Shown here in pieces: positions 22,021-55,051 of a DNA stretch of 55,130 nucleotides. The position numbers and the translations under genes were made by a program. The notes under the pieces were generated by a model. It had not been told where the DNA came from and made no database searches. It saw nothing but the letters and a program-made list of their open reading frames with translations. Numbering within the stretch: position 1 is the stretch's first letter; the number at the start of each line of letters is the position of its first letter. The DNA is from Verrucomicrobiota bacterium. Its GTDB lineage: Bacteria > Verrucomicrobiota > Verrucomicrobiia > Opitutales > Opitutaceae. The DNA is taken from the NCBI GenBank assembly GCA_028293565.1, contig JAQGON010000143.1, positions 1 through 55,130 of the forward strand, given 5' to 3'.

Positions 22021-23757
22021 TCACTTCACGCGAAACGCGTAGAGGTCGGCGTCGGCGACCTCGATGAACAGCACTACCCGCCGGCCCTGGAGCGCCTTGA
22101 GGCTTGAACCGTTTTTGAACTGCACGACGCGCTCGATCGAATTGTCCTCGATCGGCACGCAGTCGTCCCTCGTGAAGCCTTCGAGGAGATTCTGCTCCAT
22201 CAGATGCGGGTCGGTGCTTTCGGTGGTGTTCTTCAGCGTGAGCACCGGCTTGTATTCCCCGATGCCGACCCGCACGCGGCCCCGGCTCGCGTCGACGTTC
22301 AGCTGGAGCGCATCGCCGTTGATGACGAACGGCCGGGTGATCAGCGTTTCCAGCTGGCTTCCGGTGCTCAGGCTGACGTACCGGTTCCGTTTCTGGACGT
22401 AGAGTGCGATCTGCCCCTGCCGCGCGCGGTCGTGGTAATAGGTTTCCTGGTGCGCCGTCGTCCGCGTGACGAGGTGGTCGCCGTTGTAATTTCCGGTGTA
22501 GAACCAGTCCTCGTCGCCCACCTGGACCGGGGGCGACGCCCAGATCACGAGGCGGTCATAACTGTCCTGCTCGGTGCCATGCGGGATCCACGCCGTGCGG
22601 CTCGACCGGCGGTCCCAGGTGTGTCCGCCGTCGCGGCTGATCGTGATCCGCATTTCGTTCATGCCCTTGCGGGCCCAGGGCCAGAGGTACGGATTTTCCG
22701 CGGTCTTCGGCCAGGGCCAGCCCTGCGCCGGGTCGCCCGGCTTTTTTTCCATGACCGGCCCGCCGTCGGGCGTCGTCCGATCCGTGTGGATCCAGCTCAG
22801 CAGGCCGAGGACGACTCCCTCGGTCGCGTACGGAAAGAGGATCATCGGCTCGTCATAGCGGTCCGGCCGGTGCGGGTCGGCCGGATCCGGCGCCAGCGCG
22901 ATTTCCGAGCGCCATTCCTTGAGGTCCTTCGAGGCGAACCGCGCGATCTCGCGCGACGGCATCCAGTGCGGCACCGCGTTCTGGACCATCGCGACCCATT
23001 CCTGGTGCTGCTCGTCCCAGAAATTCAGCGTGTTCTCGCGCGGGCTGAAACTCCCGCCCGCCGGCACGAGCTTGTTGCGCCAGTCGCGGTCGTTGATGAA
23101 GTCGGGCAGCTCCGCGGTGAAGTAGCCCTTGCCATCGATCGAGAGCGCGTAGCGCCGCGCCGGATCCGCGACGCTGCCGTACTGGCCGAGATCGATGAAC
23201 CCGAAGGAAAGGCCGAGGAGGTTGTTCTCCTTGCTGCTCCCCACGGGCGACGGAAACGGCGGGAATTTTTTCCAGTCCAGGGAAACCGCCGCCTCGGTGA
23301 AACCCAGGCTGGGCTTGTCCCAGTGGAGGCCGTCCCTGCTCGTGGCCAGCGCGAGGCTGTTCAGATACTGCTGCGCCCGGTCCTTCTGGAGTTTTCCCCG
23401 CACCATCGCGCCATCGGCGTTGGCGACCCACCGGACGGCATCATAAAAGCAGATGAAAGTGCCGTCGGATTTCCGCGCGAAATAGAGCGGATTCATCCCG
23501 GCGGTCTCCCAGGCCTTGTCGTTCGGGATGACGACGCCCATCGGCCGCGGATGGTGCACGATGCGGTCGAAGCCGGTGCCGCGCGCGACCGCGAAATCGT
23601 CGATGAAAAACTGCCAGTGGCGCGCGTCCATTTCTGTGGCGCGCAGAGCGCCCGGCGCGGCCGCGAAGAGCGACCCGAGGAGGCAGAGGAGCAGCTTCGA
23701 TTTCAGCGAAGCGGCATAGTTCACCAACACGGCGGGAGGGGCAGACGCGTGCATCAT
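22021..23757 (-). CDS. Secreted beta-propeller protein, GH32/GH43-like, paralogue of 20181
   Basis: A 578-residue exported protein; signal peptide near 20-42 (LLLCLLGSLFAAAPGAL). WQFFIDDFAVA near 48-58, LATSRDGLHWDKPSLGF in the first blades, then two extended arms with WEMKP-like aromatic content and the C-terminal sandwich LQLNVDASRGRVRVGI to ADLYAFRVK. It is the first gene of a three-enzyme operon (22021, 20181, 18687). Start 23757 is one of two adjacent ATG codons. Upstream reading to 23901 would place a long non-signal stretch before the signal peptide and is rejected. Confidence 0.75.
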   Translation of the reverse strand: MMHASAPPAVLVNYAASLKSKLLLCLLGSLFAAAPGALRATEMDARHWQFFIDDFAVARGTGFDRIVHHPRPMGVVIPNDKAWETAGMNPLYFARKSDGTFICFYDAVRWVANADGAMVRGKLQKDRAQQYLNSLALATSRDGLHWDKPSLGFTEAAVSLDWKKFPPFPSPVGSSKENNLLGLSFGFIDLGQYGSVADPARRYALSIDGKGYFTAELPDFINDRDWRNKLVPAGGSFSPRENTLNFWDEQHQEWVAMVQNAVPHWMPSREIARFASKDLKEWRSEIALAPDPADPHRPDRYDEPMILFPYATEGVVLGLLSWIHTDRTTPDGGPVMEKKPGDPAQGWPWPKTAENPYLWPWARKGMNEMRITISRDGGHTWDRRSSRTAWIPHGTEQDSYDRLVIWASPPVQVGDEDWFYTGNYNGDHLVTRTTAHQETYYHDRARQGQIALYVQKRNRYVSLSTGSQLETLITRPFVINGDALQLNVDASRGRVRVGIGEYKPVLTLKNTTESTDPHLMEQNLLEGFTRDDCVPIEDNSIERVVQFKNGSSLKALQGRRVVLFIEVADADLYAFRVK

Positions 23758-31938: not shown

Positions 31939-32334
31939 TCAGCGGCCGTACTGCTCGTCGCTCACCTTTTCCATCCAATCGACAGCCTTGCCGTTGAGCT
32001 GCTCGTGGACGGCGATGTGCGTCATCGCCGTGGCCGGGGCGGCGCCGTGCCAGTGCTTTTCTCCCGGCGCAAACGAGACGACATCGCCCGGACGAATCTC
32101 CTCGACGGGACCTCCCTCGCGCTGCGCGCGACCGCCGCCCGCCGTCACGATCAGCGTCTGGCCGAGCGGATGCGTGTGCCACGCGGTGCGAGCGCCCGGC
32201 TCGAATGTGACGCTCGCTGCGGCCGTGCGCGCAGGAGCGTTTGACTGGAACAGCGCATCGATGCGGACGGTGCCGGTAAACCAGTCGGCCGGACCCTTGG
32301 CCGAGGGCTGAGAACCCGCTCTTTTGATTTCCAT
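31939..32334 (-). CDS. Cupin-domain protein
   Basis: A 131-residue single cupin. Motif 1 reads [16 protein letters not shown] (His52 and His54 as metal ligands) and motif 2 [17 protein letters not shown]. This small-cupin type is often annotated as carboxymuconolactone- or (R)-mandelonitrile-lyase-related; function unknown. A GGAG Shine-Dalgarno about 7 bases before the ATG at 32334 supports the start. It is the only gene of its strand in this part; the stop faces the small secreted protein gene at 31419. Confidence 0.8.
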
Positions 32335-32437
32335 GGTGAACTCCTATTGTCCGATTCGGGCAGGTTTGCAAATTCGGGCCGGCGCCGGCGAGGAGGTTAG
32401 GGCATTTTCCAAAAAAGCGGGTCCGCGAGGAAGCCGG

Positions 32438-32595
32438 CGAAAAATTCGGGTTTGGAAGGGTTGGCCGCAAAAAAGCACAAGGGCTCGGCGGCTCCGGATC
32501 GAATCCCCCGTGCGCCTATGGGCGCGATGGCAGCTCCTTCGCAACCCCCGAGCCCTTGCGCATTTTTGCGGCCAACCTCCTCTCGGAATTCCTCG
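32438..32595. repeat. Large palindromic repeat, family A, copy 2
   Basis: Arms around GTTGGCCGCAAAAAAGCACA (from 32460) and TGCGCATTTTTGCGGCCAAC (to 32576) pair over most of about 70 bases, with a loop near gtgcgcctatgggcgc. It fills much of the 388-base gap 32335-32722. The related tail at 32621-32654 follows 25 bases later, and then the 3' end of the beta-helix gene. Confidence 0.8.
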
Positions 32596-32722: not shown

Positions 32723-34507
32723 TCAGCGAGCCGGTGCGCCGGGCAGTCTGAAATTAACGGATTCGTTCCGGATATCGGCGATCTGCGAATCGACCACCTG
32801 CGCGCGGCCGGATGCGTCGCGGTGAATCCAGACGTCGTGGCTGGGCGAGCCGCCGATTCCGCTGTTGATGATCTTCACCTGTTCGAGCCGTGCCTCGGAA
32901 AGCGTGCCCTCCCCCTTTTTGCTGCCGGGCGCCACGATCGTCAGGCCGCTGGAGAGGCTGTCGCGAATGGTGACGCGGCGGATCGCGAGGCCCGAGATGC
33001 TGCGGCGGTCCAGGCAGATCTGGAACGACCCCCGCCAGGCCCAATTGTGGTCGTAGCCGCCACAGCGGAGGAGCTCGCAGTCGCGGATCTCGGTCGTGCC
33101 GCTGAAGTTGTTGTCGACCTTCCTCTCCTCGTCGGAGGTGGGAAAAGTCGTGCTGACCAGGATGCCGCATCCGGACGCAATGTCGGTGAAAAGGCAGTCC
33201 TCGATGCGGTTGTCCGCCCCGCCATAGATCGCCCCGCCGTTCGCCAGGAAAGTCAGTTGTCCAGTGCAGTGACGGATCACATTGTTGCCCGGCCGCGGGC
33301 CTTGTCCGACGAAACCCTGATCGGATGGCGCCGGCCAGATGGCAAAGCAGTCGTCGCCCGTGCCGCGGGCCGTGCAGTTCCGGATGACCGTTCCGCCGGT
33401 GCCCACACAGAGATTCACGCCATCGGCGAGGAGGTCGCGGAAGCGGCAGCCGTCGATGACCAGATTCGTCCCGTTATAGATCCAGATGCCGACCTTGGTG
33501 TGTTCCAGCCAGACGTTCGAAATCACCGAGTCGGCGCAGCCTGCGCCGACGACGCCGTCGTTCGGCTCCTGGTCGTTGCGATAGTCCAATTTGCCGACGA
33601 TCGCGAAATCGGCGAGGTGAATGTGGCTGCCGACGAGCTTGAACCGCACGCGCCGCGCCGGCTGACCGTAGAGTTTCCCGTCTCCGACGAACGTGGTGTG
33701 CCACATGCCCGCGCCTTGGATCGTCACGCCGGACGGCACCCGGATCTCGCCGGTCAGCTGGTAGTCGCCGGCCGGAACCCAGGCGGGCCTGCCCTGTTTT
33801 TGGGCCTCGGCCACGCACCGGCGCAGGGCGTCGGTGTCGTCGGTCCCGCCCTTTCCGCCCGCGCCGAAATCGAGAACGGAAAGCGCGTTGGTCGGAGCCT
33901 CGAGCGCAGCCGGGACGTTTTCGAGGTCGACCAGATCGACGATGCACTCCGCCGCGTCCCCGGCGCCGCGCTGGAGCCGGATCACATCGCCCTTCGCGAT
34001 CCGGAGATCCTTGACGCGAACCTCATCGTAGAAATTGCGCGGCTTGCCGTCGTCGGGCCGGTTGGAGAACGGGTAGGTTCCATAGAGCCACGCATAGCGG
34101 GAGGAAAGCGCCAGGGTCCTGACCGCGTTCCCGTTGATGAAGAGCTCGAGGTTCGTGGCGGTGCCGCCGCCTTCCTTGGCGTCCAGTAGGCTATAGCGGA
34201 TCACCAGCGCATTGGCCGTCGCCGCCGCGGAGAATTCCACGAAATCTCCGGGAGCCGCGAGCTTCACGCATTTCTGCCCGGAGGCTTCGGTCTCGACCAG
34301 ATGGGGATCGTAGCGGGGACCCAGCACGCGGCCGGTGGTTTTCATGGCCTCGGCCTCATAGGTAACCCACGGCAGATCGGCGCCCACTCCGGCGCGCGCC
34401 TGGCTCGAACACGCGGCGCACGCGAGGATCAGCGCGATGCGCGGGAGAAGTGACGTCGCGGCCGGAGCTCTTGCCTCCGGCGCCGCCTGACTGAGGGAAA
34501 AATTCAT
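32723..34507 (-). CDS. Secreted beta-helix glycanase, GH87-like (putative alpha-1,3-glucanase)
   Basis: A 594-residue exported protein (signal peptide about 20-39). Residues 47-198 form a CBM35-like module (YEAEAM, SRYAWLYGTYPFSNRP, NFYDEVR) of the kind joined to mycodextranases and alpha-1,3-glucanases. From about 209 a right-handed beta-helix follows. Candidate catalytic Asp residues are Asp362 (LADGVN) and the pair Asp385-Asp386 (GTGDDCFAIWP). The 23/24-residue spacing matches what I recall for GH87. Start 34507 overlaps the GH65 stop by 4 bases, so it is the last gene of the operon. It would release nigerose or nigero-oligosaccharides; pectin-lyase activity is the main alternative. Confidence 0.7.
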   Translation of the reverse strand: MNFSLSQAAPEARAPAATSLLPRIALILACAACSSQARAGVGADLPWVTYEAEAMKTTGRVLGPRYDPHLVETEASGQKCVKLAAPGDFVEFSAAATANALVIRYSLLDAKEGGGTATNLELFINGNAVRTLALSSRYAWLYGTYPFSNRPDDGKPRNFYDEVRVKDLRIAKGDVIRLQRGAGDAAECIVDLVDLENVPAALEAPTNALSVLDFGAGGKGGTDDTDALRRCVAEAQKQGRPAWVPAGDYQLTGEIRVPSGVTIQGAGMWHTTFVGDGKLYGQPARRVRFKLVGSHIHLADFAIVGKLDYRNDQEPNDGVVGAGCADSVISNVWLEHTKVGIWIYNGTNLVIDGCRFRDLLADGVNLCVGTGGTVIRNCTARGTGDDCFAIWPAPSDQGFVGQGPRPGNNVIRHCTGQLTFLANGGAIYGGADNRIEDCLFTDIASGCGILVSTTFPTSDEERKVDNNFSGTTEIRDCELLRCGGYDHNWAWRGSFQICLDRRSISGLAIRRVTIRDSLSSGLTIVAPGSKKGEGTLSEARLEQVKIINSGIGGSPSHDVWIHRDASGRAQVVDSQIADIRNESVNFRLPGAPAR

Positions 34508-36807
34508 TTTGCCGGTCGATAATTGACTGTCACCGATCGGCCGGGGCGGCATTTCACCGGCCGGCCCGCCACGAGGAAAGTGTGAATGCGCGCATTGGCG
34601 CGGGAAGGGACGATGGTCAGCGAAGTCCTCGTGATCCTGATCCGGAAATCGTCCCCTTTGTAGGCGAGGTGGAAGCGCAGGCTTTTCCATTTCCGGCAGA
34701 GCCGGGGGTTGAGGGCGACGCGGTTCTCGTCCGCCTGCACGCCGCCGAAACCCAGCACGGCCGTCATCCAGGCGCCGCCGTTCGCCGCCGGGTGCGATCC
34801 CCCCATGAAAACGGTGCCCACGTAAACCTTGTATTTGGCTTCGAGATCGATCTTCGCCGTCTGCAGGAAATAGTTGTAGGCGAAATCGAGATGGCCGAAT
34901 TCGATCGCCACCATCGCGTAGGCGCAGGCGCTCAAGCTCGAGCCGTGCTCGGTGCGCGGCTCATAATAGTCCCAGTTCGCCTTCTTGATTTTCGCCGAGA
35001 AGCGGCTCCGGAGCAGGTTGAGCATCGCCACCACGTCGGCCTGTTTGATGATCTTGGTCGCCACCGCCAGACCCTGCGCGGCGCCGAGATACTCGTTCGG
35101 GTGAACCATCTTCGCCTTGAGTTCCTCGACGGTGGCGTCCTTCAGCTGGAAGTAACCGTCGAACTGCTCGATGACTCCCGTCCTGGCATCCGGCGCGGGG
35201 ACATACAGCAGGTTCTCCGCCTCGCGAAAGCGCGGCAGTTCGCCCTGGATGTCGATCTTCGCCAGCAACGTCCGCAAGGCCTTCGGATGATTCCGCCTCA
35301 GGTAGGCCACCGTCGCGTTGGCGATCGCGAAAGTCTCCTTCGCCACCATGCTGGTGAAGGCGTTGTTGTTGACGCGCTCGTGGTATTCGTCGGGCCCGAT
35401 GACATCGAGGATCTCGTAGCGGCCTTTGTCCTTCTTGAAGTAGGCATAGGAGTAGTAGAAACGGGCGCACTCCAGGATCACCTCGGCGCCCCCTTCAAGC
35501 AGCAGCGAGTCGTCGCCGGTCAGCTTGAAATACTCCCACATCGCGATGGCGACGTCGCCGGTGATGTGAACCTGCTTGTCGCGGAAGTGCGTGCGCAGGT
35601 CGCGCCCGGTGAACGGATCGCCGACGTTGAAATAAGTGCAGGCATCGTCGCCCGCCTCCTGGCTCTCCCAGGCGTAGAAGGCGCCGCGATAACCCGGTCC
35701 CTCCGTCTTTGCCTTCCGCCGGGCACCGTCGAGGGTCTTGATCCGGTAGCGCACCAGCTCGACCGCCTTCTCCGGATCGGTGTGCAGGAAGAACGGCAGC
35801 ATGAATATTTCCGTGTCCCAGAAAACCGCGCCCTTGTAGACCTGCCCCGACAACGCGCGCGCCGGGATCGAGTTCGCGCTGCCGCGCACCGGCGCCACCA
35901 TCAGCAGCTGGAGAATGCTGTAGCGCAACGCGTGCTGCGCTTCGTCGTCGCCCGCGATCTCGACGTCGCAGCGCTCCCACTTGCGGGCCCACTCGGCGTC
36001 ATGTCTTTCCCGGCAGCCCTCGCGGCCCAGCGCCCGGGCCTGCTGGACGGTCTCGATGGCGGCCTCCGTCAGCGGTTTGTTGACGGTGTCGTTGTCGGTG
36101 AAGACCGCGAAATATTTGTGGAACGTGTAGGTTCGGCCCGCCTCGGCGCGCAGCTGGATTACGCGGAGGTTGCGGTTGTCCGTGGTCTCGTGGGTCTCGG
36201 TTCCGAAAGGGAGGTCGATGGCTTCGGCGACGACGACCCGCTTGGAATTTTCGTGGGTGACGCCCTGCACGAGCAAAACCGGCCCGTGTTTCTCCGCGGT
36301 CATCTGCCGCAGGTGGGGGCCGTTCAGGTCCCAGATGTTGCAGTCAATCCCGGTGCGGATCGTGACGCGAGCCGCCTGCGCGCAGCGCACGCTGAACGTC
36401 ACGACGCCGAGGTTGGGCGTCGCGGCGCTGAGCCAGCGGGACGACTCGAGCGTGAGGGTCTTCGCCTTCGCCGCGAACACCGTCTTCCGCCCGAACACGG
36501 CATTGGCGAAATTCAGCGTCTGCTCGTGGCGCGTGACCCTGCTGCCCAGGGCGGAAAGTTCGACGCCCTCGAGCGAGACGCGCGTGAAGGCCGCGTTGGG
36601 GGCATTGACAGGTTCCCGCCACGCGGAGCCGACGCGATCGAAGATTCCGGCCAGGGTGATGCCGACCAGCTCGTCCGGGCCGAATTCATCCAGCGTGCCG
36701 CGGTAACCCATGTAGCCATTCGCGATCTGATAGACGTTGCCGCGGCGCATGATGCTCTCCTTGCCGCCGACGAACCCGTTCGCGCTGAGTGACCACAGAT
36801 TTTTCAT
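34504..36807 (-). CDS. Glycoside hydrolase family 65 disaccharide phosphorylase
   Basis: A 767-residue cytosolic inverting phosphorylase. The family motif FWDTEIFMLPF is at 329-339, the general-acid Glu474 is in IGPDEYHERVNNN (470-482), and the phosphate-binding loop HGSSLS lies at about 642-647. The product would be beta-glucose-1-phosphate plus glucose. Specificity (maltose, kojibiose, nigerose, trehalose) cannot be read directly. The substrate loop LSGQVYKGAVFWDTE differs from the GEGYxGHxFWDTE that I recall for maltose and kojibiose phosphorylases. It starts 6 bases after the MFS stop. The partner beta-phosphoglucomutase is of the Mycobacterium Rv3400 type, next to GH65 Rv3401 there. Confidence 0.85.
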   Translation of the reverse strand: MKNLWSLSANGFVGGKESIMRRGNVYQIANGYMGYRGTLDEFGPDELVGITLAGIFDRVGSAWREPVNAPNAAFTRVSLEGVELSALGSRVTRHEQTLNFANAVFGRKTVFAAKAKTLTLESSRWLSAATPNLGVVTFSVRCAQAARVTIRTGIDCNIWDLNGPHLRQMTAEKHGPVLLVQGVTHENSKRVVVAEAIDLPFGTETHETTDNRNLRVIQLRAEAGRTYTFHKYFAVFTDNDTVNKPLTEAAIETVQQARALGREGCRERHDAEWARKWERCDVEIAGDDEAQHALRYSILQLLMVAPVRGSANSIPARALSGQVYKGAVFWDTEIFMLPFFLHTDPEKAVELVRYRIKTLDGARRKAKTEGPGYRGAFYAWESQEAGDDACTYFNVGDPFTGRDLRTHFRDKQVHITGDVAIAMWEYFKLTGDDSLLLEGGAEVILECARFYYSYAYFKKDKGRYEILDVIGPDEYHERVNNNAFTSMVAKETFAIANATVAYLRRNHPKALRTLLAKIDIQGELPRFREAENLLYVPAPDARTGVIEQFDGYFQLKDATVEELKAKMVHPNEYLGAAQGLAVATKIIKQADVVAMLNLLRSRFSAKIKKANWDYYEPRTEHGSSLSACAYAMVAIEFGHLDFAYNYFLQTAKIDLEAKYKVYVGTVFMGGSHPAANGGAWMTAVLGFGGVQADENRVALNPRLCRKWKSLRFHLAYKGDDFRIRITRTSLTIVPSRANARIHTFLVAGRPVKCRPGRSVTVNYRPAK

Positions 36808-36813
36808 CTCGAA

Positions 36814-38316
36814 TCAGGCCGCGGCCCCCTCGTCCCTGACCCGCAGCATGAGCAGCGCGGCGACGACCATCGAAATCCCGCCCATCACGAGCGCATCGAT
36901 CGCATGCCCGTGAAACACGGTGCGGACCAGCAGGCCCAGCAGGGCGGAGGCGAGGATCTGCGGGACGACGATGAAGAAATTGAACATGCCCATGTACACC
37001 CCCATCTTTCGATAGGGCACGACGCTGCTGAGGATCGCGTACGGCATCGTCAGCAGGCTGGCCCAGGCGACGCCCAGCGCCGCCATGGAGACGATCAGCA
37101 ATCCGGGCTGCCTGAAAAAGCCCATCGAACACAGCCCCGCTCCGCCGATCACCAGACAGACGACGTGGGTCGTGACCCGGCTGGTGCGGCGGGCCATGAC
37201 CGGAAGCAGAAAAGCGACCAGCGCCGCCACGCCGTTGTAGACCGACATCAGCACGCCGACCCAGTTGGCTCCCAGGTTGTAGGCTTCGCTTCGCGGATCG
37301 CTGCTGCCGAAATGATAACTGGTGACGGCGGCGGTGGAGTAGATGAAGAAGGCGAACAGCGCGAACCACGTGAACATCTGCGCCAAGGCGAGCTGTTTCA
37401 TCGCCGGGGGCATGTGGTTGAGATCGTGCATCAGCTCCACCAGCCCGCGCTTTTTTCCGGCGGCGTAACGCCGGGCGGCCACCCACTGCAGGACACCGTA
37501 GCAGCAGGCGCCAAAGGAGAGGATGTAGAGGCCCTGGTCCCACGAGAGCTGGCGGATGACGAAACTGCCGACCAGGCCTCCCGCGAGCAGCAGGACGGCG
37601 GAGACGCGGTATTTCCCGGCATCCAGCGTGAGGTCCGCTTCCGCCTTGCCGTCGGCGGCGGACGCCTGGGAATGAAAAGCCTCCTGCTCCTCCGGCGAAT
37701 ATTCCCTCACCGAGAAAATGGTCCAGAGCACGGCGAGCAGATAGACCGCGCCGCCGCAGTAAAAGGACCACTTCACCGACTCGGGCACCTGCCCTTCGGG
37801 CGCGGTGTTGGCGAAGTGGAACCAGTTGGTCAGCAGATACGGCATCAGCGAGCCGACCACGGAACTGGCGCCGATGAAGAAGGTCTGGACGGCGAACCCC
37901 ATGGTCCGCTGCTCGTCGGGCAGCATGTCGCCCACGAAGGCCCGCATCGGCTCCATCGTGAGATTGATGGAGGCATCCATGATCCAGAGCATGCTCGCGG
38001 CAAACCACAGCGCGGGCGAATTGGGCATCACCAGCAAGGCCAGCGATGCGAGAATGGCGCCAACGAGGAAGTAGGGTTTCCGGCGCCCGAGCCGGTTCCA
38101 CGTCCGGTCGCTCAGGTAGCCGACGATCGGCTGCACCAGCAATCCCGACACGGGCCCGGCAATCCAGAGAATCGGAATCTCGTCCACCCTCGCGCCCAGC
38201 GTTTCGAAGATCCGGCTGACGTTGGCATTCTGCAGCGCGAAGCCGAACTGAATGCCCACGTAGCCGAAGCTCATGTTCCAGAGTTGCCAGAATCTCAACC
38301 GGGGTTTTTTGCGCAT
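36814..38316 (-). CDS. MFS sugar transporter, SLC45/GPH-like
   Basis: A 500-residue inner-membrane carrier with about 12 predicted helices and a long central loop (about 210-235, Glu/Ala-rich). The motif SDRTWNRLGRRKPYFLVGA near 68-86 matches the RxGRRRP signature of SLC45/sucrose-maltose proton symporters, and MWIMDAS-type WIMDASINLTMEP near 115-127 is also typical. It would bring the disaccharide into the cytosol. It sits between beta-phosphoglucomutase (11 bases upstream) and GH65 (6 bases downstream), in one transcription unit. Confidence 0.85.
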   Translation of the reverse strand: MRKKPRLRFWQLWNMSFGYVGIQFGFALQNANVSRIFETLGARVDEIPILWIAGPVSGLLVQPIVGYLSDRTWNRLGRRKPYFLVGAILASLALLVMPNSPALWFAASMLWIMDASINLTMEPMRAFVGDMLPDEQRTMGFAVQTFFIGASSVVGSLMPYLLTNWFHFANTAPEGQVPESVKWSFYCGGAVYLLAVLWTIFSVREYSPEEQEAFHSQASAADGKAEADLTLDAGKYRVSAVLLLAGGLVGSFVIRQLSWDQGLYILSFGACCYGVLQWVAARRYAAGKKRGLVELMHDLNHMPPAMKQLALAQMFTWFALFAFFIYSTAAVTSYHFGSSDPRSEAYNLGANWVGVLMSVYNGVAALVAFLLPVMARRTSRVTTHVVCLVIGGAGLCSMGFFRQPGLLIVSMAALGVAWASLLTMPYAILSSVVPYRKMGVYMGMFNFFIVVPQILASALLGLLVRTVFHGHAIDALVMGGISMVVAALLMLRVRDEGAAA

Positions 38317-38327
38317 GGGTGGTTTCC

Positions 38328-39164
38328 CTAGCCAGAGGCAGAGTGGCTGCAGGCGCTAGCGCGTTTGTGCCGAATCAGCCGGTTGATCTTCTCCAAGCTG
38401 GTCTCGGCGAGATCGCGAACGACCACGTCGGCGCCGTGATCGCGGAGTTCTCCCGCGTTGTTTTCCCGGGCGATCCCGACCACAAGGGCGAAGCCTCCCC
38501 TCGCCCCGGCCTGCACGCCAGTCACCGCATCCTCGACGACGATCGCTCGTCCGGCCGGCACCCCGAGGTTGGCGGCCGCGACGACAAAAATGTCCGGGGC
38601 CGGCTTACCCTTGAGTCCGAGCTGCGCGGAGACGACGCCGTCCACGACCGTGGCGAACAGCGACGCGGTGTGCGTCTTGCCGAGGATCGTCGCGGAATTC
38701 CGGCTGGACGTCGCCAGACCCACCCGAATGCCCGATGCGCGCAGCTTCTGGATGAAAGCGACCGTGGAATCGTAGACCCCTGCGCCCTCTCGTTCGATCA
38801 TCTCGTTGAAGAGCGCATTCTTTCTGTTGCCGAGGCCGCACACGGTTTCGCACCCGGCCGGATCGCGCGGCGAGCCCGGCGGCAGGACGATCCCTCTCGA
38901 CTGCAAAAAGGACTCCACTCCCTTGGAGCGCGGGCGTCCGTCCACATGCACGAGATAATCCGCGTCATGGGTGAATTCCCGGAACGGCACGCGGTGCGTG
39001 GCTTCGCGGCTCCGGAGGAATTCGTCGAACATCCGCTTCCAGGCCCTCGAGTGAACCGCGGCCGTCTGGGTGACGACGCCGTCCATGTCGAAGATCGCCG
39101 CAACGAAGTCCCGTTGGCCGGCGTGGTTCGACTGGAGGTTTTCGCGATGATTTCCGCGCTGCAT
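38328..39164 (-). CDS. pgmB: Beta-phosphoglucomutase-family HAD phosphatase/mutase
   Basis: A 278-residue HAD enzyme. Motif I is FDMDGVV (nucleophile Asp in the first position after Phe, acid two residues later), motif II is ATSSRN, the Lys is in LKGKPAPD, and motif IV is VVEDAVTG. The cap reads YLVHVDGRPRSKGVESFL and GLGNRKN, typical of the Rv3400-like beta-phosphoglucomutase group that occurs beside GH65. It converts beta-glucose-1-phosphate to glucose-6-phosphate. The start at 39164 (C-rich leader ctccccaagcccaATG) was chosen because the domain begins there; the frame stays open upstream to 40094 but lies across the TonB receptor gene. Confidence 0.85.
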   Translation of the reverse strand: MQRGNHRENLQSNHAGQRDFVAAIFDMDGVVTQTAAVHSRAWKRMFDEFLRSREATHRVPFREFTHDADYLVHVDGRPRSKGVESFLQSRGIVLPPGSPRDPAGCETVCGLGNRKNALFNEMIEREGAGVYDSTVAFIQKLRASGIRVGLATSSRNSATILGKTHTASLFATVVDGVVSAQLGLKGKPAPDIFVVAAANLGVPAGRAIVVEDAVTGVQAGARGGFALVVGIARENNAGELRDHGADVVVRDLAETSLEKINRLIRHKRASACSHSASG

Positions 39165-39268
39165 TGGGCTTGGGGAGCGCGGCGGTTTGCGACGCGGAAA
39201 ACGGCGAAAACGTCCGCCACCGGTTGCAGTCGGCAAGGTGATCTGAAACGCGACTCGCGCCCGGGCAC

Positions 39269-39294
39269 CGCGTTTGGCGCCGCCGCCAAACGCG
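39269..39294 (-). terminator. Strong hairpin between receptor and pgmB
   Basis: CGCGTTTGGCG (39269-39279) and CGCCAAACGCG (39284-39294) form a perfect 11-bp stem with a 4-base loop, 10 bases after the receptor stop on the minus strand. No T-tract follows. It could stabilise the receptor mRNA or reduce read-through into pgmB. Confidence 0.5.
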
Positions 39295-39304
39295 ACGCGC
39301 CGGA

Positions 39305-42300
39305 TCAGAAGTAGAGGGTGCTGGTGACGAAAAGCTTCTGGGCCGGGGCGATCCGGTAACCGGCCGGAGTGCCAGCGGGCTGTCCCGGGATCGGGCCCTG
39401 CGCCGTGATGGGAATCAGCTCGTTGCCCTTGAAGGCGTTTTGGACGTTCAGCTGGAGGTGCCAATTGACCTTGCTCGTCAGCCTCCGGCTGTAACCGACC
39501 CAGAGATCGGCGTTGGTCTCGGTCGGCCCCTTGTAGGGACTGCCAAGATTCACCCCGTAATCGGAGGGATTGTCCGGATTGCCCGTCGGCGGATAGCCGA
39601 TGGTAACCGCGCTCTGATAACGCAGGCCGCCACCATAATTGACCCCCTTCAGGAAGCCAGTGGTGATGTCGTAGTTCGAGATGAGGTTGACGCGCCACTC
39701 GCGCAGTTCGGGAACATTGGAGCCCTCGAGGAGCGTCCGGCTCACCCATTGGGCGCCGGGATTGTTGAGGTAATTGTACCACGTGTCCTTCGCGCGCGGG
39801 ACGTCGGCGGTGCCCCACCAGAAATGGAGCTGGCCCGCCGGGCCCTGGACCGAACTCGCGATCAGATTCATGAGCGCCTTCATGTTCTCGCCGCCGATGT
39901 TGTTTCGGACGGCCTGCGACTCGCTGGCGTTGAGCGTGAGCCGCCAGTGCTTGGTCGGCTGGGCGTTGAGCTCGATTTCCCAGCCCTTCGAGACGCTGTC
40001 TTCGGAAACCGTGAACCCGGCCGGCACGTGGACCTCGCCCGGGATCGGAATCGCCTGGCCCGACTGAGCGTACGCCAGGCTCGTGTAACCCCACGCGGAC
40101 CAGAAACGCGGATCGACTTTCGCCTGGAACGCACGATAGCCGGCGATCGCCGCCGCCTCTCCCGCGGTGTCAAAGGTGCCGTCGGCGTTCTGGAAGTTGA
40201 AGCGCTGCGGATTGCCCTGCTGGAAATTCGAGGCCGACCGCACAAACTCAAAGTTGCCGATATCGTATTGGAAGACGTTGGCGAAATTAGCGCCGTGACC
40301 CAACCAGTTGCCGATGTCGTACCCGATCGAGCTGTCGCCCGAGGAGTTCAGGTTCGTCGTCACGTAGCGATTGACCTTGAGCGAAAACCGGCCGTCGCGC
40401 GATTCGATCATGATGCCACGGTCGATCGTCTTGCCGGACGGGGAAGGCAGCGCCACGCCTAGGATGTCCACGCGGCTGGCATCGGGCTTGAAGTTCGTCG
40501 ACACGTTGTAGGACAGGCTCACCTCGAAGGGCCAATGCTTCGTCACCTCCTTGAGCACGGGGAGATCCATCAGGTGCCCCACGACGCTGTAGGCGCGCGA
40601 CTGCACTTCCACGCGGCCGTCCTCGGCGCCGGGCAACGCGTAATTGTTGAAGTCGATCCGTTTGTAGTCCGCGCTCGCGGGGTTCGTGCTCACAAGCCGG
40701 TCGAGCTTCCACGACTTGTTGATGTCCCGGCGCCACCCGTACGTGCCGACGATCGCGTTGCCGAGCATCTTGCCCTGCCAGACCAAGGCCTGGGACGTGG
40801 TGGCCGACCTGCGCAGCGACGCGGCGGTCGTCAGTTTGTCGCGATTTCCAGGCGCCGCCTCGGAGTCCGTCACCTCGAGCCGGGCATTCGTCCAGCCGAC
40901 GTAGTTCGCGGGGTTTTCCGATTGAGTGGAATTCATCGCCGCCGGATTTCCCGGCTGGCCCGGCGCCAGCAGCGCCGGATTTCCGGTGAAGAAATAATTG
41001 GTCCACGGCGCGGCCGGATCGACATAGCCAGCCGCGGCCGGATCCAGGGGGTACTTCCAATGATCGTCAAAGTAACGGACCTGCCCGCTCGTGATCGTGG
41101 GATTCCCCGCAATTCGCGGAATGTTCGCCCCCGTCACTGCCTTGCCCTTGAGCGTCGACCCGAGATAGACGATCGAGGTCGGGACCATGCCGGCGGAGTT
41201 GAAAGCCGACGTCGCCGGATTGAGATGCTCGATGGCATAGGCCGTGTCCGAGAGATAGCCGTACCGCTGCCAGGCGCGACTGTCGGTCTTCTGCTTATCG
41301 TCCGAGAGCAGGCCGGTAAGCGTTTGCACGCCGAGAATGCGGTTCAGCCACGATTTCTCCCCTTTCGAAAAGTCGTGGGTGACGAAGCCCGTGACCCGCT
41401 TCGTCTCGCGGTCGCTCGTGAAGGAGTTGTTGACCCCTCCCGTCGACGAAACAAACGCGCGGCCCACATTCGGGTTCGCGGTGCCATCCGAGAAGGGGTC
41501 TCCGTTTCGGCCCGCGTCCGGCGTGCCATCGGCGAAGACCGCCATCGGGTCGACATACAGCCCCACGTTGCCGCCGAGCAGCGCGACTTGCCCGCTTTGA
41601 TAATGCTCCTTGTTATAGTCGAGCGAGAAGCCGGCTTGGTCGTTCAGGAACGTCTGCGTGAGATTCAGGGTGCTGGAGTTGAAGCGCTGCCACTCCCGCT
41701 TGGTGTCGCCGTCGATCAGATTGTTGTAGAAGTCGAAGATCGAAGGGTTCGTGAGGAGGTTGTCCTTGTGGATGCCGGCGGCAGAATACGGCAGCTTGCT
41801 TTCCGCGGCCCAGAGCGCGGTGCCGTTGATGCCCCGCATGCGGCCGGGAGCGGCGACAAAGCCGCCGATATCGCCGTCCCTCTGTCCATTGGGCCCGATG
41901 CCGTTGCTCTGCAGTCCCGCCGAAACCTCCGTGAGCCAGAGCGCCGGCGAGCCGCCGCTTCCGAAGAAGGCGACCGGCTCGGGCCCGCCCGAGGTGCCGA
42001 AATTGGCGTTGGCGATCCACGGTGAAAAATAGGGAATGGGCCCCGAGTTCGGCGACGCGTAACCGGCGTCGCGGGCCTGACCGTGATTCACGCGGCCGGA
42101 AAGGTGATCCCAGAGCTGCATTCCCGAATAAGTCGCCTGCTTCAGGTCCGTGAACCATGGCGTGAGGTTGTCGGTCGGAGGCAGCTCGCGCGGATTATTG
42201 CTGTCGACCTGGCCGTTCTCGAAGCTCGCCTTGAAGATGGTGCGGTTCCCGTTGCGTTTCAGGAATTCCGGCTCGATGCGGATCGCGCCATAGAGGCGCT

Positions 42301-43051
42301 GGTCCTTCGAAAAAGCCGGCTCCTGCTGGAATTTCTCGTTGTCGCGCAGCGCATCGAGGCGGAAGGCGACCTGTCCCGGAACGATCACCTGGTTGAGATC
42401 GAGCGACAGGCGGTTGCTGCCGAAACTGCCGTAGCGCGCCTCGAGATTCCCCGAGTTGCGGAAACTGGCGCCCTTCGTCCCCGCGTTGATGATGCCGGCG
42501 GGGCTGCCCTGACCGAACAGGATCGAGTTGGGCCCGCGCTGGAGATCGATGCGATCGACGTTGTAGCTGTCCCACGGGATTTCCGTGCGGAAGAAATCGC
42601 GGGTGTTGTCGGCGGCGGCGAGGCCGCGCACGCGGGTGTTTTCGTTTGGCCGCTGAAGCGGCTCGCTGAGATGGGCGGTGTCGCCGGTGCCGGCAAAATT
42701 GCCCGAGATGCCGCCAACCTCGGAACTGGGCGTGTAGAGCAGCAGCGAGGCATTGTTCACCGCGCCGGTGTCCTTGAGGAACTGGCTGGAGATGACCGTC
42801 ACGGCGCTGCCGACGTCGCGCAGCTGGGTATTGAGCCGGTTGCCGGCCAGCGTGGTCGCGGCATTATAACCACCGGAATCGTCGGCGGCCACTTCGAAGG
42901 GCGACAGGAAAACGATCTCTTCCTCCGGAGAGGCGGCGGGGGCGGAGGGTGTGGCGGGGTCCGGTTTGACCTGCGCCTGGAGATACGCACAGGGAATGAG
43001 CAAGGTGGCCAGAACGGCGAGCGGCCGTGAAAGCCTGGGGTGGATCTTCAT
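39305..43051 (-). CDS. Large TonB-dependent outer-membrane receptor (1248 residues)
   Basis: Signal peptide about 1-27 (LAVLATLLIPCAYLQAQ). LSPFEV near 49-54 is a probable TonB box. The plug (about 70-200) contains NTRVRGLAAADN and RIDLQRGPNSILFGQGSPAG. The long barrel ends in Phe (LFVTSTLYF). Size and the RGPNSILFG sequence fit the large Opitutaceae carbohydrate-type receptors. It is the first gene of the alpha-glucan operon and would import oligosaccharides over the outer membrane. Start 43051 gives MKIHPRLSRPLAVL; the leader is ttccccaaacATG, no Shine-Dalgarno. It is followed by the hairpin at 39269-39294. Confidence 0.9.
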   Translation of the reverse strand: MKIHPRLSRPLAVLATLLIPCAYLQAQVKPDPATPSAPAASPEEEIVFLSPFEVAADDSGGYNAATTLAGNRLNTQLRDVGSAVTVISSQFLKDTGAVNNASLLLYTPSSEVGGISGNFAGTGDTAHLSEPLQRPNENTRVRGLAAADNTRDFFRTEIPWDSYNVDRIDLQRGPNSILFGQGSPAGIINAGTKGASFRNSGNLEARYGSFGSNRLSLDLNQVIVPGQVAFRLDALRDNEKFQQEPAFSKDQRLYGAIRIEPEFLKRNGNRTIFKASFENGQVDSNNPRELPPTDNLTPWFTDLKQATYSGMQLWDHLSGRVNHGQARDAGYASPNSGPIPYFSPWIANANFGTSGGPEPVAFFGSGGSPALWLTEVSAGLQSNGIGPNGQRDGDIGGFVAAPGRMRGINGTALWAAESKLPYSAAGIHKDNLLTNPSIFDFYNNLIDGDTKREWQRFNSSTLNLTQTFLNDQAGFSLDYNKEHYQSGQVALLGGNVGLYVDPMAVFADGTPDAGRNGDPFSDGTANPNVGRAFVSSTGGVNNSFTSDRETKRVTGFVTHDFSKGEKSWLNRILGVQTLTGLLSDDKQKTDSRAWQRYGYLSDTAYAIEHLNPATSAFNSAGMVPTSIVYLGSTLKGKAVTGANIPRIAGNPTITSGQVRYFDDHWKYPLDPAAAGYVDPAAPWTNYFFTGNPALLAPGQPGNPAAMNSTQSENPANYVGWTNARLEVTDSEAAPGNRDKLTTAASLRRSATTSQALVWQGKMLGNAIVGTYGWRRDINKSWKLDRLVSTNPASADYKRIDFNNYALPGAEDGRVEVQSRAYSVVGHLMDLPVLKEVTKHWPFEVSLSYNVSTNFKPDASRVDILGVALPSPSGKTIDRGIMIESRDGRFSLKVNRYVTTNLNSSGDSSIGYDIGNWLGHGANFANVFQYDIGNFEFVRSASNFQQGNPQRFNFQNADGTFDTAGEAAAIAGYRAFQAKVDPRFWSAWGYTSLAYAQSGQAIPIPGEVHVPAGFTVSEDSVSKGWEIELNAQPTKHWRLTLNASESQAVRNNIGGENMKALMNLIASSVQGPAGQLHFWWGTADVPRAKDTWYNYLNNPGAQWVSRTLLEGSNVPELREWRVNLISNYDITTGFLKGVNYGGGLRYQSAVTIGYPPTGNPDNPSDYGVNLGSPYKGPTETNADLWVGYSRRLTSKVNWHLQLNVQNAFKGNELIPITAQGPIPGQPAGTPAGYRIAPAQKLFVTSTLYF

Positions 43052-43247
43052 GTTTGGGGAAATACGGGATTGAAAGTGGGGTGGTTGATCAGGAACCGGC
43101 ACGAATGGCTTCGGCGGTGGGAGAGAATGGCGCGGTCAAGCGCTGTTCGGGGTGATGGCATTCATTCGAGAAAACCGGTGACACATTGGGGAGGGGTGGA
43201 CGGGGTGGTCCAGGGTATCTATCGCAGCCTGCTGTGACGGATTTCGA

Positions 43248-43291
43248 GGAAACGTTTTCCCGACGCGACTTCGTTGCTTTGCAAACGTTGC
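43248..43291. promoter_or_regulatory. Candidate LacI-type operators between the receptor operon and its regulator
   Basis: GGAAACGTTTTCC (43248-43260, with the palindromic core AAACGTTT) and GCAAACGTTGC (43281-43291) share the AAACGTT centre of LacI-family operators. They lie between the divergent starts at 43051 and 43549. The match is by eye. Confidence 0.4.
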
Positions 43292-43321
43292 GAAACCCGC
43301 CGAAGACGGTCCGCTTCCACG

Positions 43322-43475
43322 GGTGGAATGCGTTGTCGCAGACCCTGAGCTCGACCCGGTGGAACGCGTTGCCCTCAACGCGTGGGATGCTCCGCCGACA
43401 ACCAAAGTCCGCTCGCGTCTCCAGCGCATTGGGGCCCGTTCGACAAGCTCAGGGTCTGCGACAATGCGCTCCACC
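43322..43475. repeat. Palindromic repeat, family D, copy 2
   Basis: The left arm (from 43322, ggtggaatgcgttgtcgcag) and the right arm (to 43475) are reverse complements at 27 of 30 positions. It shares the right arm gttcgacaagctcagggtct with copy 1 at 14415-14530. It lies just upstream of the LacI-type gene. The rest of the 43052-43548 gap holds the candidate operators. Confidence 0.75.
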
Positions 43476-43548
43476 TCCGGGCAAACTGTACTGCTGCAAA
43501 AGCGTCGGGTGCTATTGACGCCGCCTTCGTGCCGCCGCACAAAAGGGC

Positions 43549-44646
43549 ATGAACTCCGTTGTGCTACCCCGCACGACGCCCACCCTGCACGAGGTTGCGA
43601 GAAGGGCGGGGGTTTCCGTTTCCACGGCGTCACGCTGCCTGAGCGGCGCGGCGAAAGTCGCGAAATCCACGGAGGTGCGCGTCCTGGCGGCCGCCACGGC
43701 GACCGGCTACCACCACAACACGCTCGTCGGCCAGGTCATGCGGGCGACCCGCCTGGGGACGCCGCTGAATCATCTCGGGACCTTGGCCTTCGTCACGCCG
43801 GTGGCGGATTCCCACGTCTGGCGCGCCACGCCCACCCTTTGCCGCAATTGGGAGGCGGCTCGCGAACGCGCCGAATCGTTCGGGTTTGCCATCACCGAGT
43901 TCACGCTGAGCTCCCGCGGCATGACCGGACGCCGCCTCGGCGAGATCCTCACCGCCCGGGGAATTTCCGGCGTGCTGCTCGCGGCGTTCCCGATGGAGCC
44001 GCACGAAATATCGCTGCCGTGGGATGACTTCGCATTTGTCCAGGTCGGGCATCGACTCAAGTTGCCGCGCCTCGACTGCGTGGTGAGCGACCACACCGAG
44101 TCCGTGACCATGGCGGGGCGGATGATCGCGGGCTGCGGTTCCCGGCGGGTCGGGCTCGCGATCGAGAAGTACCAGGACGAGATCACAGACGGACGGTGGT
44201 CGCTCGGTTATGCCGGGCTTCGCGCCAGCGTGCCGGGCCTCGCCGAAATTCCGGCGCTCCTGCCCGCGCAGATGAATGCCGAGGTTTTCCTGAAGTGGGT
44301 CGACCGGCACGCGGTCGATTGCGTCCTGACGCTCTCCACCTTTCGCAACGAACCGAATCGGATGGAAGCCTGGCTGGCCTCGGTCGGACGCTCGGTTCCG
44401 GGGGAGGTTGGCCTGGTCTCGCTCGACGTGACCTCGGTGCACGCGGACTGGAGCGGGGTCGAGCAGCATTCGGAAGAGATCGGCCGCGCCGCGGTCGACG
44501 TGCTGTTTTCCAAGCTCGAGGCAGGAGAACGCGGCGTTCCGCGGCTTCCGCGGACCCTCCAGGTTCACGGCCACTGGCACGACGGCCGGACCCTCCGCCG
44601 CCCAGGACAGGTCAAGGCTGACGCCTCCGAGGTTTGCGCCGTTTGA
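43549..44646 (+). CDS. LacI-family transcriptional regulator
   Basis: A 365-residue regulator. The N-terminal HTH is TLHEVARRAGVSVSTASRCL (12-31), followed by the hinge region, and the rest is a periplasmic-binding-type effector domain (LGTLAFVTPVADSH, GVLLAAFPMEP, VGLVSLDVTS, QHSEEIGRAAVDVL). Divergent from the TonB receptor operon and its likely regulator, with GGAAACGTTTTCC-type sites between. The C-terminus reads GQVKADASEVCAV; a near copy of these last codons plus downstream sequence occurs at 45639-45701. The start at 43549 has no clear Shine-Dalgarno. Confidence 0.9.
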   Translation: MNSVVLPRTTPTLHEVARRAGVSVSTASRCLSGAAKVAKSTEVRVLAAATATGYHHNTLVGQVMRATRLGTPLNHLGTLAFVTPVADSHVWRATPTLCRNWEAARERAESFGFAITEFTLSSRGMTGRRLGEILTARGISGVLLAAFPMEPHEISLPWDDFAFVQVGHRLKLPRLDCVVSDHTESVTMAGRMIAGCGSRRVGLAIEKYQDEITDGRWSLGYAGLRASVPGLAEIPALLPAQMNAEVFLKWVDRHAVDCVLTLSTFRNEPNRMEAWLASVGRSVPGEVGLVSLDVTSVHADWSGVEQHSEEIGRAAVDVLFSKLEAGERGVPRLPRTLQVHGHWHDGRTLRRPGQVKADASEVCAV

Positions 44647-44772
44647 GAATCGCGCTTTCGGGACGGGCCGCGCCGGACCTGTTTTATTCTCCCATCTGGA
44701 AACCGGAGTCCAAGTCCCCTCCCCTGTCGATTGGCGTTCATCAGTGTCCGTTCTCGGTTAACTTTCCCGCCC

Positions 44773-45320: not shown

Positions 45321-45470
45321 GAATTCCGGCGCGGAGATTGGCCGCAAAAATGCGCAAGGGCTCCGGCGCTGCGACGGAGCTGCCATCGCGCCTATGGGCG
45401 CACGGGGGATTCAATTCGGAGTCCCGGAACCCTTGCGTATTTTCGCGGCCACTCCTTCCGAGCCCGGATT
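45321..45470. repeat. Large palindromic repeat, family A, copy 3
   Basis: ATTGGCCGCAAAAATGCGCA in the left arm pairs with tgcgtattttcgcggccact in the right arm, with a loop near gcgcctatgggcgc. The loop-flanking part is inverted relative to copies 1 and 2 (ggagctgccatcgcg is on the left here, cgcgatggcagctcc on the right in copy 2). The element lies in the 429-base gap 45301-45729. Confidence 0.8.
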
Positions 45471-45516
45471 TGGCCCCGGCTTCCTCGGCAGACGCATGGA
45501 CGAGTGGCGTTTCCTC

Positions 45517-45550
45517 GCGCTTCGAGCACTTCGCGCCCTTCGTGATGAAA
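45517..45550 (+). repeat. Dispersed intergenic repeat, 'cttcgtggtaaaa' tail, copy 3
   Basis: The sequence reads cgcgcttcgagcacttcgcg then cccttcgtgatgaa, close to 32621-32654. As there, it follows the large palindrome and precedes sequence like the beta-helix 3' end. Confidence 0.5.
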
Positions 45551-45611
45551 TAGCCCGGGCTTCTCAAGGCGTGTGGATCTCTCCCTTCGCGATCCAGGCC
45601 CTGCTTCCCGA

Positions 45612-45701
45612 GCAGTCCGAAATTGACGGATTCGTTCGGGACAAATCAAAGCCGATGCCTCCGAGATTTGCGCTGTTTAAGAAACGCATTTTCAGGACGG
45701 G
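45612..45701. pseudogene. Collapsed remnant of a second glucan-locus copy
   Basis: 45612-45641 matches the 3' end of the beta-helix gene (32743-32772) at 27 of 30 bases; on the minus strand it still reads NESVNF. 45639-45701 matches the 3' end of the LacI gene and 21 bases beyond it (44605-44667) at 51 of 63 bases; on the plus strand it reads GQIKADASEICAV and stop. The two ends meet at the shared bases GGA. They have the same order and orientation as the ends of the intact locus, and most changes in the LacI part are G-to-A or C-to-T. I infer a tandem copy with its interior deleted. A shared repeat that happens to include both 3' ends is the alternative. Confidence 0.6.
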
Positions 45702-49533: not shown

Positions 49534-49608
49534 TGGTGCGGGCGGCGGGAGTCGAACCCGCTTCTCATGCTTGGGAAGCACACATAATAGCCGGTATACT
49601 ACGCCCGC
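49534..49608 (-). tRNA. tRNA-Gly (anticodon CCC)
   Basis: Read on the minus strand, GCGGGCG (acceptor) pairs with CGCCCGC; the anticodon loop is TTCCCAA between TGTGC and GCATG; and GCGGG-TTCGACT-CCCGC is the T arm. Anticodon CCC reads GGG (Gly). The gene encodes an A discriminator and 3' CCA (49534-49537 as tggt on plus). The D arm is short and AT-rich (GTATA...TATTA). Confidence 0.9.
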
Positions 49609-52966: not shown

Positions 52967-54871
52967 ATGTGCGGCATAGCTGGCTTCGTCAGCACGCGTG
53001 ATTCTGCCGAGGCCCGCTTCATGGCGGTCGACCGGATGTGCGCGGAAATGGTTCACCGCGGACCGGACGATTCGGGAATCGAGGCGAGCGCGATCGCCAC
53101 GCTCGGAATGCGGCGGCTGGCGATCTTCGATCCGGCGCACGGACATCAGCCGATGAGGACCGCCGACGGCCGTTTCACCGTGGTCTTCAACGGCGCGATC
53201 TACAATTTCCGCGCGCTGCGATCGGAACTGGAAGGCGCGGGCCACCCGTTTCGGACGGAGTGCGACACCGAGGTCCTCCTCGCCACGTACGCGGAATGGG
53301 GCGAAGCCTGCCTGCCGCGCCTGCGCGGGATGTTCGCCTTCGCCGTGTGGGACGAGCGCGAGCAGACCCTGTTCGTCGCGCGCGATCCGTTTGGAATCAA
53401 ACCGCTGTACTACCGTCACGACGGCGCCCGGTTCGTGTTCGCGTCCGAGCTCAACGCGCTAACCCGCTCGGGCGCCTGCGACGGAGAGATCGATCCGCGA
53501 TCGGTGGCCGATTACCTCGGTTGGTTCGCCGTGCCGGCGCCGCGCACGATTTATCGCGGAGTGTTCAGCCTGCTGCCGGGCGAATGTGGGACATTCCACG
53601 CGGGACAGCTGACGCTGAAACGCCACTGGACGTTTCGCACGATCCCCGGCGGTGAAAAGATCGCTCCGACCCGCGTGGAATTTATCCACGAGCTGCGCGC
53701 GCGCCTCGACGACACGATCCGCGCCCACGTGCTGGCCGACGTGCCGGTCGGCGCGTTTCTCTCGGGCGGGCTCGATTCCGCCGTCGTGGTCGGACTCATG
53801 GCCCAGGCGGCCCCCGGCACGCTGCGCACGTTTTCGATCGGGTTCGGCGAGACGAGCTACACGGAGGCCGACGCCGCCGCGGCGACTGCCCGGCATTTCG
53901 GCACGCAGCATCACGCGAACATTCTCACCGGAAACCAGGTCAGCGCCGACATCGGCACGCTGATCGCCTCGATGGACCAGCCGACAGGCGACGGCATCAA
54001 CACGTATTACGCCAGCCAGGCGGCGCGCGCCGGCGGCGTCACGGTCGCGTTGTCCGGCCTTGGCGGCGACGAGCTTTTTGGCGGCTATCCCTCCTTCCGC
54101 GATCTGCCCAGGGTCGACTCGTGGCTGCGCGCCTGGCGCCTGCTGCCGGCCCTCGTGCAACGCGCGCTGCTCGCGCGGCTCCGCCGCGGCGGGACGCGCA
54201 GCCGCAAGCTCGGAGACTTTTTCGAGCACGCGACGAACCTCAACGAACTCGGCTCGCTCCAGCGCCGCGTTTTCTCCGAGGCGGGCCGCCGTGCGCTGCT
54301 CGCCCCGGACGCGCTCGACGTCCTCGGCTCAACGCCGCCGCATCATCCGGCGCTGCCCGACCTCGCAGGCGATCTCGCGGGCGCGGATGCGTTCGAAATT
54401 CTCAGCGCGTGGGAACTCCGGACCTACATGGCCGACGTGCTGCTGCGCGACAGCGACGTCATGAGCATGCGCCATTCGCTCGAGCTGCGCGTGCCGCTGG
54501 TCGACCGCCCGCTGGTCGAGTGGCTCTGGCGGCAGCCATCCGCGTTCAAGCACGACCCCCGCCGGCCCAAGGCGGCGCTGTTCGACGCCGTCCGCGACCT
54601 GATGCCTGCGGGATTGGAGAGGCGTCCGAAGAAAGGCTTCAGCCTGCCGTTCGCGGTCTGGATGCGCCGCGAACTGCGGCCGTTTCTCGAGTCGACGTTC
54701 AGCGATGCGAGCATCGACCGCAGCGGAGTGTTCGCGCGCGGGCCGGTGCAGCAGTTCTGGCGCCGGTTTCTCGACGGCAGCGATGCCCGCGAATGGTCGC
54801 GGGTCTGGTCGCTCGCGGTCCTGATCGCATTCGTGAACCGGCCGAAGGCACCGGATTTGAACAGAAGGTAA
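52967..54871 (+). CDS. asnB: Asparagine synthase (glutamine-hydrolysing), AsnB-type
   Basis: A 634-residue two-domain enzyme. Cys2 (MCGIAGF) is the glutaminase nucleophile, with HRGPDDSG, NGAIYNF and ECDTEVLL (29-105). The synthetase domain has the PP-loop SGGLDSAVV and LSGLGGDELFGGY. The stop codon lies inside a 36-base inverted-repeat arm (54855-54890), so the last residues (DLNRR) come from the repeat. Its place beside a probable glycosyltransferase suggests that it modifies a surface polysaccharide or peptide rather than making free Asn; that is inference. The start is fixed by Cys2. Confidence 0.9.
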   Translation: MCGIAGFVSTRDSAEARFMAVDRMCAEMVHRGPDDSGIEASAIATLGMRRLAIFDPAHGHQPMRTADGRFTVVFNGAIYNFRALRSELEGAGHPFRTECDTEVLLATYAEWGEACLPRLRGMFAFAVWDEREQTLFVARDPFGIKPLYYRHDGARFVFASELNALTRSGACDGEIDPRSVADYLGWFAVPAPRTIYRGVFSLLPGECGTFHAGQLTLKRHWTFRTIPGGEKIAPTRVEFIHELRARLDDTIRAHVLADVPVGAFLSGGLDSAVVVGLMAQAAPGTLRTFSIGFGETSYTEADAAAATARHFGTQHHANILTGNQVSADIGTLIASMDQPTGDGINTYYASQAARAGGVTVALSGLGGDELFGGYPSFRDLPRVDSWLRAWRLLPALVQRALLARLRRGGTRSRKLGDFFEHATNLNELGSLQRRVFSEAGRRALLAPDALDVLGSTPPHHPALPDLAGDLAGADAFEILSAWELRTYMADVLLRDSDVMSMRHSLELRVPLVDRPLVEWLWRQPSAFKHDPRRPKAALFDAVRDLMPAGLERRPKKGFSLPFAVWMRRELRPFLESTFSDASIDRSGVFARGPVQQFWRRFLDGSDAREWSRVWSLAVLIAFVNRPKAPDLNRR

Positions 54872-55030
54872 CCGAGGCAACGAAGCGCCGCTCGTGTGCG
54901 GGGCCCGGGTTGCGGGCAGAGCGTGATCCGGAGGAGGGTTTGGAAATCACAAAAACTTTGGACGCTGCATGCAAACCCGGACGCTATCGACGGACGGCGC
55001 TTCGTTACCTTGGTTGGCTTCTGTTCAAAT
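54855..55030. repeat. Inverted repeat, family E, overlapping the asnB stop
   Basis: Arms at 54855-54890 (starts ATTTGAACAGAAGGTAACCG) and 54995-55030 (ends GGCTTCTGTTCAAAT) are reverse complements at 32 of 36 positions. The asnB stop codon (54869-54871) is in the left arm. The sequence type (GAACAGAAGGTAAC) is one I recall from intergenic repeats in related genomes. The 104 bases between the arms show no feature. Confidence 0.75.
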
Positions 55031-55051
55031 GATCGGAAAAAAAGAAAGCAC

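Follow-up and report, generated by a model that had tools for sequence, protein, structure and literature searches.

We propose that the 94 bases at positions 45608 to 45701 are the scar of a second copy of an alpha-1,3-glucan utilisation locus, which would once have lain directly downstream of the copy that is still intact and in the same orientation, and we put the probability of this reading at roughly 70%. The window, i.e., the whole stretch of 55,130 nucleotides analysed here, is contig C52 of an Opitutaceae genome of 4.16 Mb in 239 contigs. Within the scar, A2 (45608 to 45641, minus strand) is presumably what is left of the 3' terminus of another gene for a beta-helix alpha-1,3-glucanase; it is identical to 32739 to 32772 at 30 of 34 positions and codes for NESVNFGLLG. 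The adjoining B2 (45639 to 45701, plus strand) is the corresponding remnant of a second lacI 3' end, comprising the last 13 codons, the stop codon, and 21 nucleotides beyond it, and it is identical to 44605 to 44667 at 51 of 63 positions.

The intact locus (32723 to 44646) comprises six genes, which Pfam names as a beta-helix alpha-1,3-glucanase with both catalytic domains of that enzyme (CatAgl_D1 and D2), a GH65 protein, an MFS transporter, a HAD-family protein, a TonB receptor (a protein with the TonB receptor plug domain), and LacI. Judging by these names, the locus may serve the use of alpha-1,3-glucan. The intact counterpart of A2, A1 (32739 to 32772, minus strand), lies at the 3' end of the beta-helix gene, whose stop codon is at 32723 to 32725, and that of B2, B1 (44605 to 44667, plus strand), lies at the 3' end of lacI, with its stop codon at 44644 to 44646. 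The nearest named records that carry the locus are Opitutaceae or Opitutia MAGs. In one relative, G016, the locus is complete and its genes keep this order and orientation, with DNA homology that is continuous over 32731 to 39118 and then runs in pieces to 44609; gene order and orientation are likewise as in the window in L132, as far as its contig stretch goes. A different arrangement, glucanase then lacI in one direction, is found in G003 and G023. At a threshold of E 1e-60, a glucanase match was present in 27 of the 252 family genomes (our own included), a looser set than the locus itself. Our own genome has a single glucanase match, and its other listed lacI matches are only 31 to 33% identical. 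Two side observations concern this stretch: a cupin gene of G016 (L096:17142-17564) encodes a protein 74% identical to that of the window cupin gene at 31939 to 32334 but lies on the opposite side of the locus, and between the TonB gene and lacI (43311 to 43494) there is another dispersed repeat with dozens of genome matches.

A repeat finder recovered both parts of the scar as direct repeats on the same strand, D7 (32739 to 32772 versus 45608 to 45641, 34 nucleotides at 88%) and D1 (44605 to 44667 versus 45639 to 45701, 63 nucleotides at 81%), with the GGA at 45639 to 45641 common to both. The next best matches on either strand of the window reached only 21/34 for A and 31/63 for B. Of 400 random plus-strand probes of each length, a set unfiltered for other real repeats of the window, an equally good second match was obtained for 1 (34 nucleotides) and 7 (63 nucleotides). 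When the locus was compared with the 10.4 kb to its right, the sole matches better than E 0.12 were its two extreme ends (E 2e-5 and 2.6e-10; 60.8 bits for B1 and B2), and these lie adjacent and colinear, arranged and oriented as in the 12-kb locus. The initial annotation, which had reported the two outer 3' ends recurring side by side at 81 to 90% identity with a partly preserved coding signal, was borne out in these respects: NESVNF can be read in A2, and B2 reads GQIKADASEICAV-stop against GQVKADASEVCAV-stop in B1, with 17 of the 21 nucleotides beyond the stop codon identical as well. The homology of A2 to the glucanase end breaks off within that end at 45608, and no significant extension into the longer C termini of three relatives was detected (p 0.25 to 0.95). 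A search of our own genome for interior remnants of the locus returned only a dispersed repeat among the 40 of 348 candidates that were scored. That the homology of A2 breaks off where it does, and that the signal is confined to the 94 bases of the scar, weighs against our reading.

Comparison with relatives bears on whether A and B are gene ends. Among the 22 genomes with a readable glucanase gene end, our own included, 18 carry the C-terminal motif N-[ED]-S-x-x-F, and the other 4 have variants of it (by eye); this part reads IRNESVNF in our genome and in G071, and IRNESVQF in G016. For lacI, the first 27 bases of B were compared in register with the ends of 14 related genes and with 20,000 shuffles, at a cutoff of p<0.005. 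B was recognisable in three of them: G016 (ending GQI-stop-AD) shares 16 bases with B1 and 19 with B2, L137 (ending VQIQADTSKV-stop) 19 and 20, and L131 14 and 15, the match to B2 being equalled by none of the 20,000 shuffles for the first two and having p 0.0015 for the third. None of the remaining 11 passed the cutoff, G113 coming closest with 14 (B1) and 13 (B2) of 27 (p 0.011 and 0.015), and L132, at 82% LacI protein identity, had no similarity to B. That B goes unrecognised in these 11, L132 among them, speaks against the scar reading. Hence lacI ends vary, with B representing one branch of them. On these alignments, A and B are gene ends of this locus family, a case that is strong for A and that for B is made by a minority of relatives.

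The differences between the copies may also tell something about the order of events. B1 and B2 differ at eight coding positions, yet only two of these change an amino acid, both from valine to isoleucine; in simulations, so few changes arose from eight random differences with a probability of 0.004 to 0.018, depending on the transition bias. This preponderance of synonymous differences suggests that the copies diverged as working genes before the deletion. On the simplest reading of this small sample, coding constraint acted on both copies over much of that period. The substitutions had previously been described as mostly GC to AT, in the sense of decay. Taken at face value, the comparison of B shows this trend, but the direction is mis-polarised: changes occurred on both copies, and at three of the B differences it is the intact copy that changed, to G or C. 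When the differences were polarised by eye with the relatives, three in B were derived on B1, two on B2 (one of them by virtue of L137 alone), and seven were open or conflicting, while in A one was derived on A1, two on A2, and one was conflicting; one of the two A2-derived sites is right where the two sides join and could be part of lacI instead.

We therefore envisage the following course of events. The locus would first have been duplicated; both copies would then have diverged, with the lacI end under coding constraint; and a deletion by illegitimate recombination, presumably a single event, would finally have joined the glucanase gene to lacI. The breakpoints would lie 47 nucleotides before the stop codon of the glucanase gene and 39 nucleotides before that of lacI, and the deletion would have removed about 11.8 kb if copy 2 equalled copy 1 in size. 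The gene interiors of A2 and B2 face each other, as expected for what is left over from an interior deletion in a copy of the same orientation. No function of the scar is visible.

At the junction itself (45637 to 45641), the overlap between the two sides depends on the ancestor that is assumed and amounts to either one nucleotide (the C at 45637) or three (the GGA at 45639 to 45641). The shared GGA, at which the initial annotation placed a fusion by microhomology, is real, but this version needs a later C-to-G change at 45638. By eye, the relatives' lacI ends read CGACCGGGGCAAAT in G016 and CGACCGGTGCAAATC in L137 at this point, which suggests CCGGGACAAATC for copy 2, and with that sequence a one-base overlap results without any extra change. 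Since this fits equally well, microhomology is uncertain. According to passages of PMC11111574, bacterial duplications can join with little or no homology, and microhomology was unnecessary in an earlier study by the same paper's authors; that work differs from the present case in that it concerns an engineered duplication system and not a deletion scar.

How the second copy arose is a separate question. The same direction and the closeness of the two copies make a tandem duplication the likely source. Strict tandem arrangement, as put forward originally together with the interior deletion, is nevertheless unproven. Between B1 and A2 lie 940 nucleotides with an open reading frame of 175 amino acids, which has no Pfam match and is present in only 1 of 57 genomes (our own), and with the palindrome and tail repeats discussed below. 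A plain tandem unit predicts either that B1 adjoins A2 or that a copy of this spacer lies to the right of B2; B1 is not directly beside A2, and no counterpart of the spacer was found right of B2, which argues against a plain tandem. Likewise, we found neither duplicated flanks nor a unit boundary consistent at both ends: flanks and spacers are unalignable, and the palindromes are inverted. Either the spacer is a later insertion, or a second deletion took its copy, or the second locus came separately.

The last of these options would mean that two related loci, with different Opitutaceae as possible donors, entered one accessory site near a tRNA gene independently, and that the older one was deleted to leave a xenolog scar. 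We consider this unlikely. Synteny with the genus extends from the tRNA-Gly gene (49534 to 49608) rightwards to about 54840; left of the gene there are only scattered genus matches, such as a GH43 gene of G152 that lies on another contig, and this region looks accessory, as would suit repeated acquisition at one site. In addition, the other 11 genomes of the genus have no glucanase match at E 1e-60, and their listed lacI matches are at best about 33% identical. The divergence of 12 to 19% between the copies is large, at some sites where A1 and B1 carry derived states A2 and B2 agree with other relatives, and G071 is nearly as close to A1 (28/34) as A2 is (30/34). Against this, separate acquisition would make the shared orientation within 1 kb a coincidence, the similarity extends into the 21 nucleotides beyond the lacI stop codon, and the copies are closer to each other (30/34 for A, 22 of the first 27 bases for B) than to G016 (25/34 for A, 16 and 19 of 27 for B). 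Elsewhere in the window, 20185 to 21443 and 22025 to 23277 are neighbouring related stretches that are 73% identical, and 54847 to 55040 belongs to a further dispersed repeat family with many genome matches.

The palindromic repeat (45321 to 45496, plus strand) and the tail, a short dispersed repeat (45513 to 45557, plus strand), do indeed lie upstream of both A ends at similar distances, as first noted, but they do not hold up as part of the duplicated unit. We do not count the palindrome in the scar, and the tail is not a proven part of it. A count by eye gave about 40 additional palindrome sites in the genome, in both orientations, with 40 of 110 candidates scored; copies in the window include those at 45321 to 45496, 32426 to 32591, and 7359 to 7510. 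The copy left of A1 (32426 to 32591) is on the other strand, being 83% identical in inverted versus 74% in direct alignment; both palindromes near A1 and A2 have closer kin elsewhere in the genome; and the spacers between palindrome, tail, and A at the two sites do not align. By eye, we measured 163 and 156 nucleotides from palindrome and tail to A, versus 148 and 142 in the first account. The core pattern of the tail has 76 matches versus 11 in a reversed control, and it occurs within 300 nucleotides of only 2 of the 28 other palindrome copies that best match the one at 45.3 kb. Within the fetched set, the two tails match one another best, though only narrowly (47.3 versus 46.4 and 43.7 bits); contig C176 of our own genome matches the second tail better (50 bits). 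A joint duplication of the tail may still have taken place. That both A ends have a palindrome and a tail upstream is a coincidence without explanation and cannot be counted in favour of duplication. Unequal crossing-over mediated by the palindromes is unsupported on the same grounds, namely, their inverted orientation, their closer kin elsewhere, and the unalignable spacers. For genome annotation, this implies that repeats beside such a scar are no evidence for the same event.

We regard it as very improbable that the adjacent A and B are instead an old empty site and that the 12-kb locus inserted into another copy of it with a 3-bp target duplication of GGA. This insertion model was first favoured on account of the drop in blastn homology to the G016 lacI at 44609. 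The GGA at both ends resembles a short target duplication, and 11 of the 14 related lacI ends lack a clear continuation into B. The model was dropped because the glucanase end is conserved as coding sequence through A in most relatives and because in G016, L137, and L131 the lacI frame carries on in register into B; an old empty site is not expected to consist of two gene ends, and the scar is better derived from a locus. Moreover, no inverted repeats were seen by eye at the locus ends, nothing scar-like lies beside the GH43 genes of G152 and G007 (p 0.385 and 0.79), and none of the other 251 family genomes gave a strong match to A-B as a contiguous unit without the locus. Comparison of empty sites within the genus yielded nothing, since block-wise conservation does not extend to the left of tRNA-Gly.

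A short dispersed repeat or a chance match is scarcely credible as an explanation of the unit: the genome is rich in dispersed repeats, some of them beside A1 and A2, but the runner-up matches in the window are poor, the two good ones are the extreme ends of one locus in adjacent and colinear order, and many dispersed copies of the 90-base unit, which had been named as the observation that would speak against a scar, were not listed in searches that also missed the known B1. In our own genome, A1 was the only other place listed with a 116-base or 101-base query, and B1, 1 kb away, was likewise unlisted, perhaps because B1 and the query were treated as one candidate; other copies may have been missed as well. 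Across the 252 family genomes, our own gave the sole strong match, and two other genomes gave marginal ones (E 0.004 and 0.008).

The same scar was accordingly not found among the other 251 family genomes, nor did any of the relatives examined have two tandem loci. Ten stretches beside relatives' loci or GH43 genes contained no significant scar (lowest p 0.065). G237 has two copies of the beta-helix glucanase gene (L141 and L142), 90.5% identical over 749 nucleotides and each running to a contig end; the genome may itself be a two-copy one, or the bin may be mixed.

Among the titles and abstract openings covered, we found no published description of such a scar. Kugelberg et al. (2006, 2010), cited in passages of PMC3857721, described internal deletions in duplicated and amplified segments, which resemble the scar in that interior DNA is deleted from surplus copies of a segment. 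In contrast to the amplification under selection treated in those passages, the present case is an old natural remnant with the copy divergence given above, and no amplification is seen. The same passages describe the loss of one duplicate by deletion as the fate of most gene copies, and here, too, one copy is intact and the other gone; what differs is that both ends of a six-gene locus are still readable. Most likely, this is a genuine deletion scar, ordinary in its mechanism though unusually readable as a trace of gene-cluster loss.

A bolder version of the preferred reading strikes us as improbable, namely, that two alpha-1,3-glucan loci, diverged but both functional, lay next to each other and that one of them was lost nearly in full, its breakpoints both falling within the last 16 codons of the outermost genes. 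If true, so clean a loss would point to selection against an expressed leftover or to an excision process acting on whole sugar-utilisation loci. In either form, the deletion of a second locus copy would make the scar a legible fossil of how an entire polysaccharide-utilisation locus was lost, and would illustrate how few bases, here 94, may be left of 12 kb. It also suggests that a pair of diverged copies of such a locus can persist in a bacterium over long periods until one is deleted.
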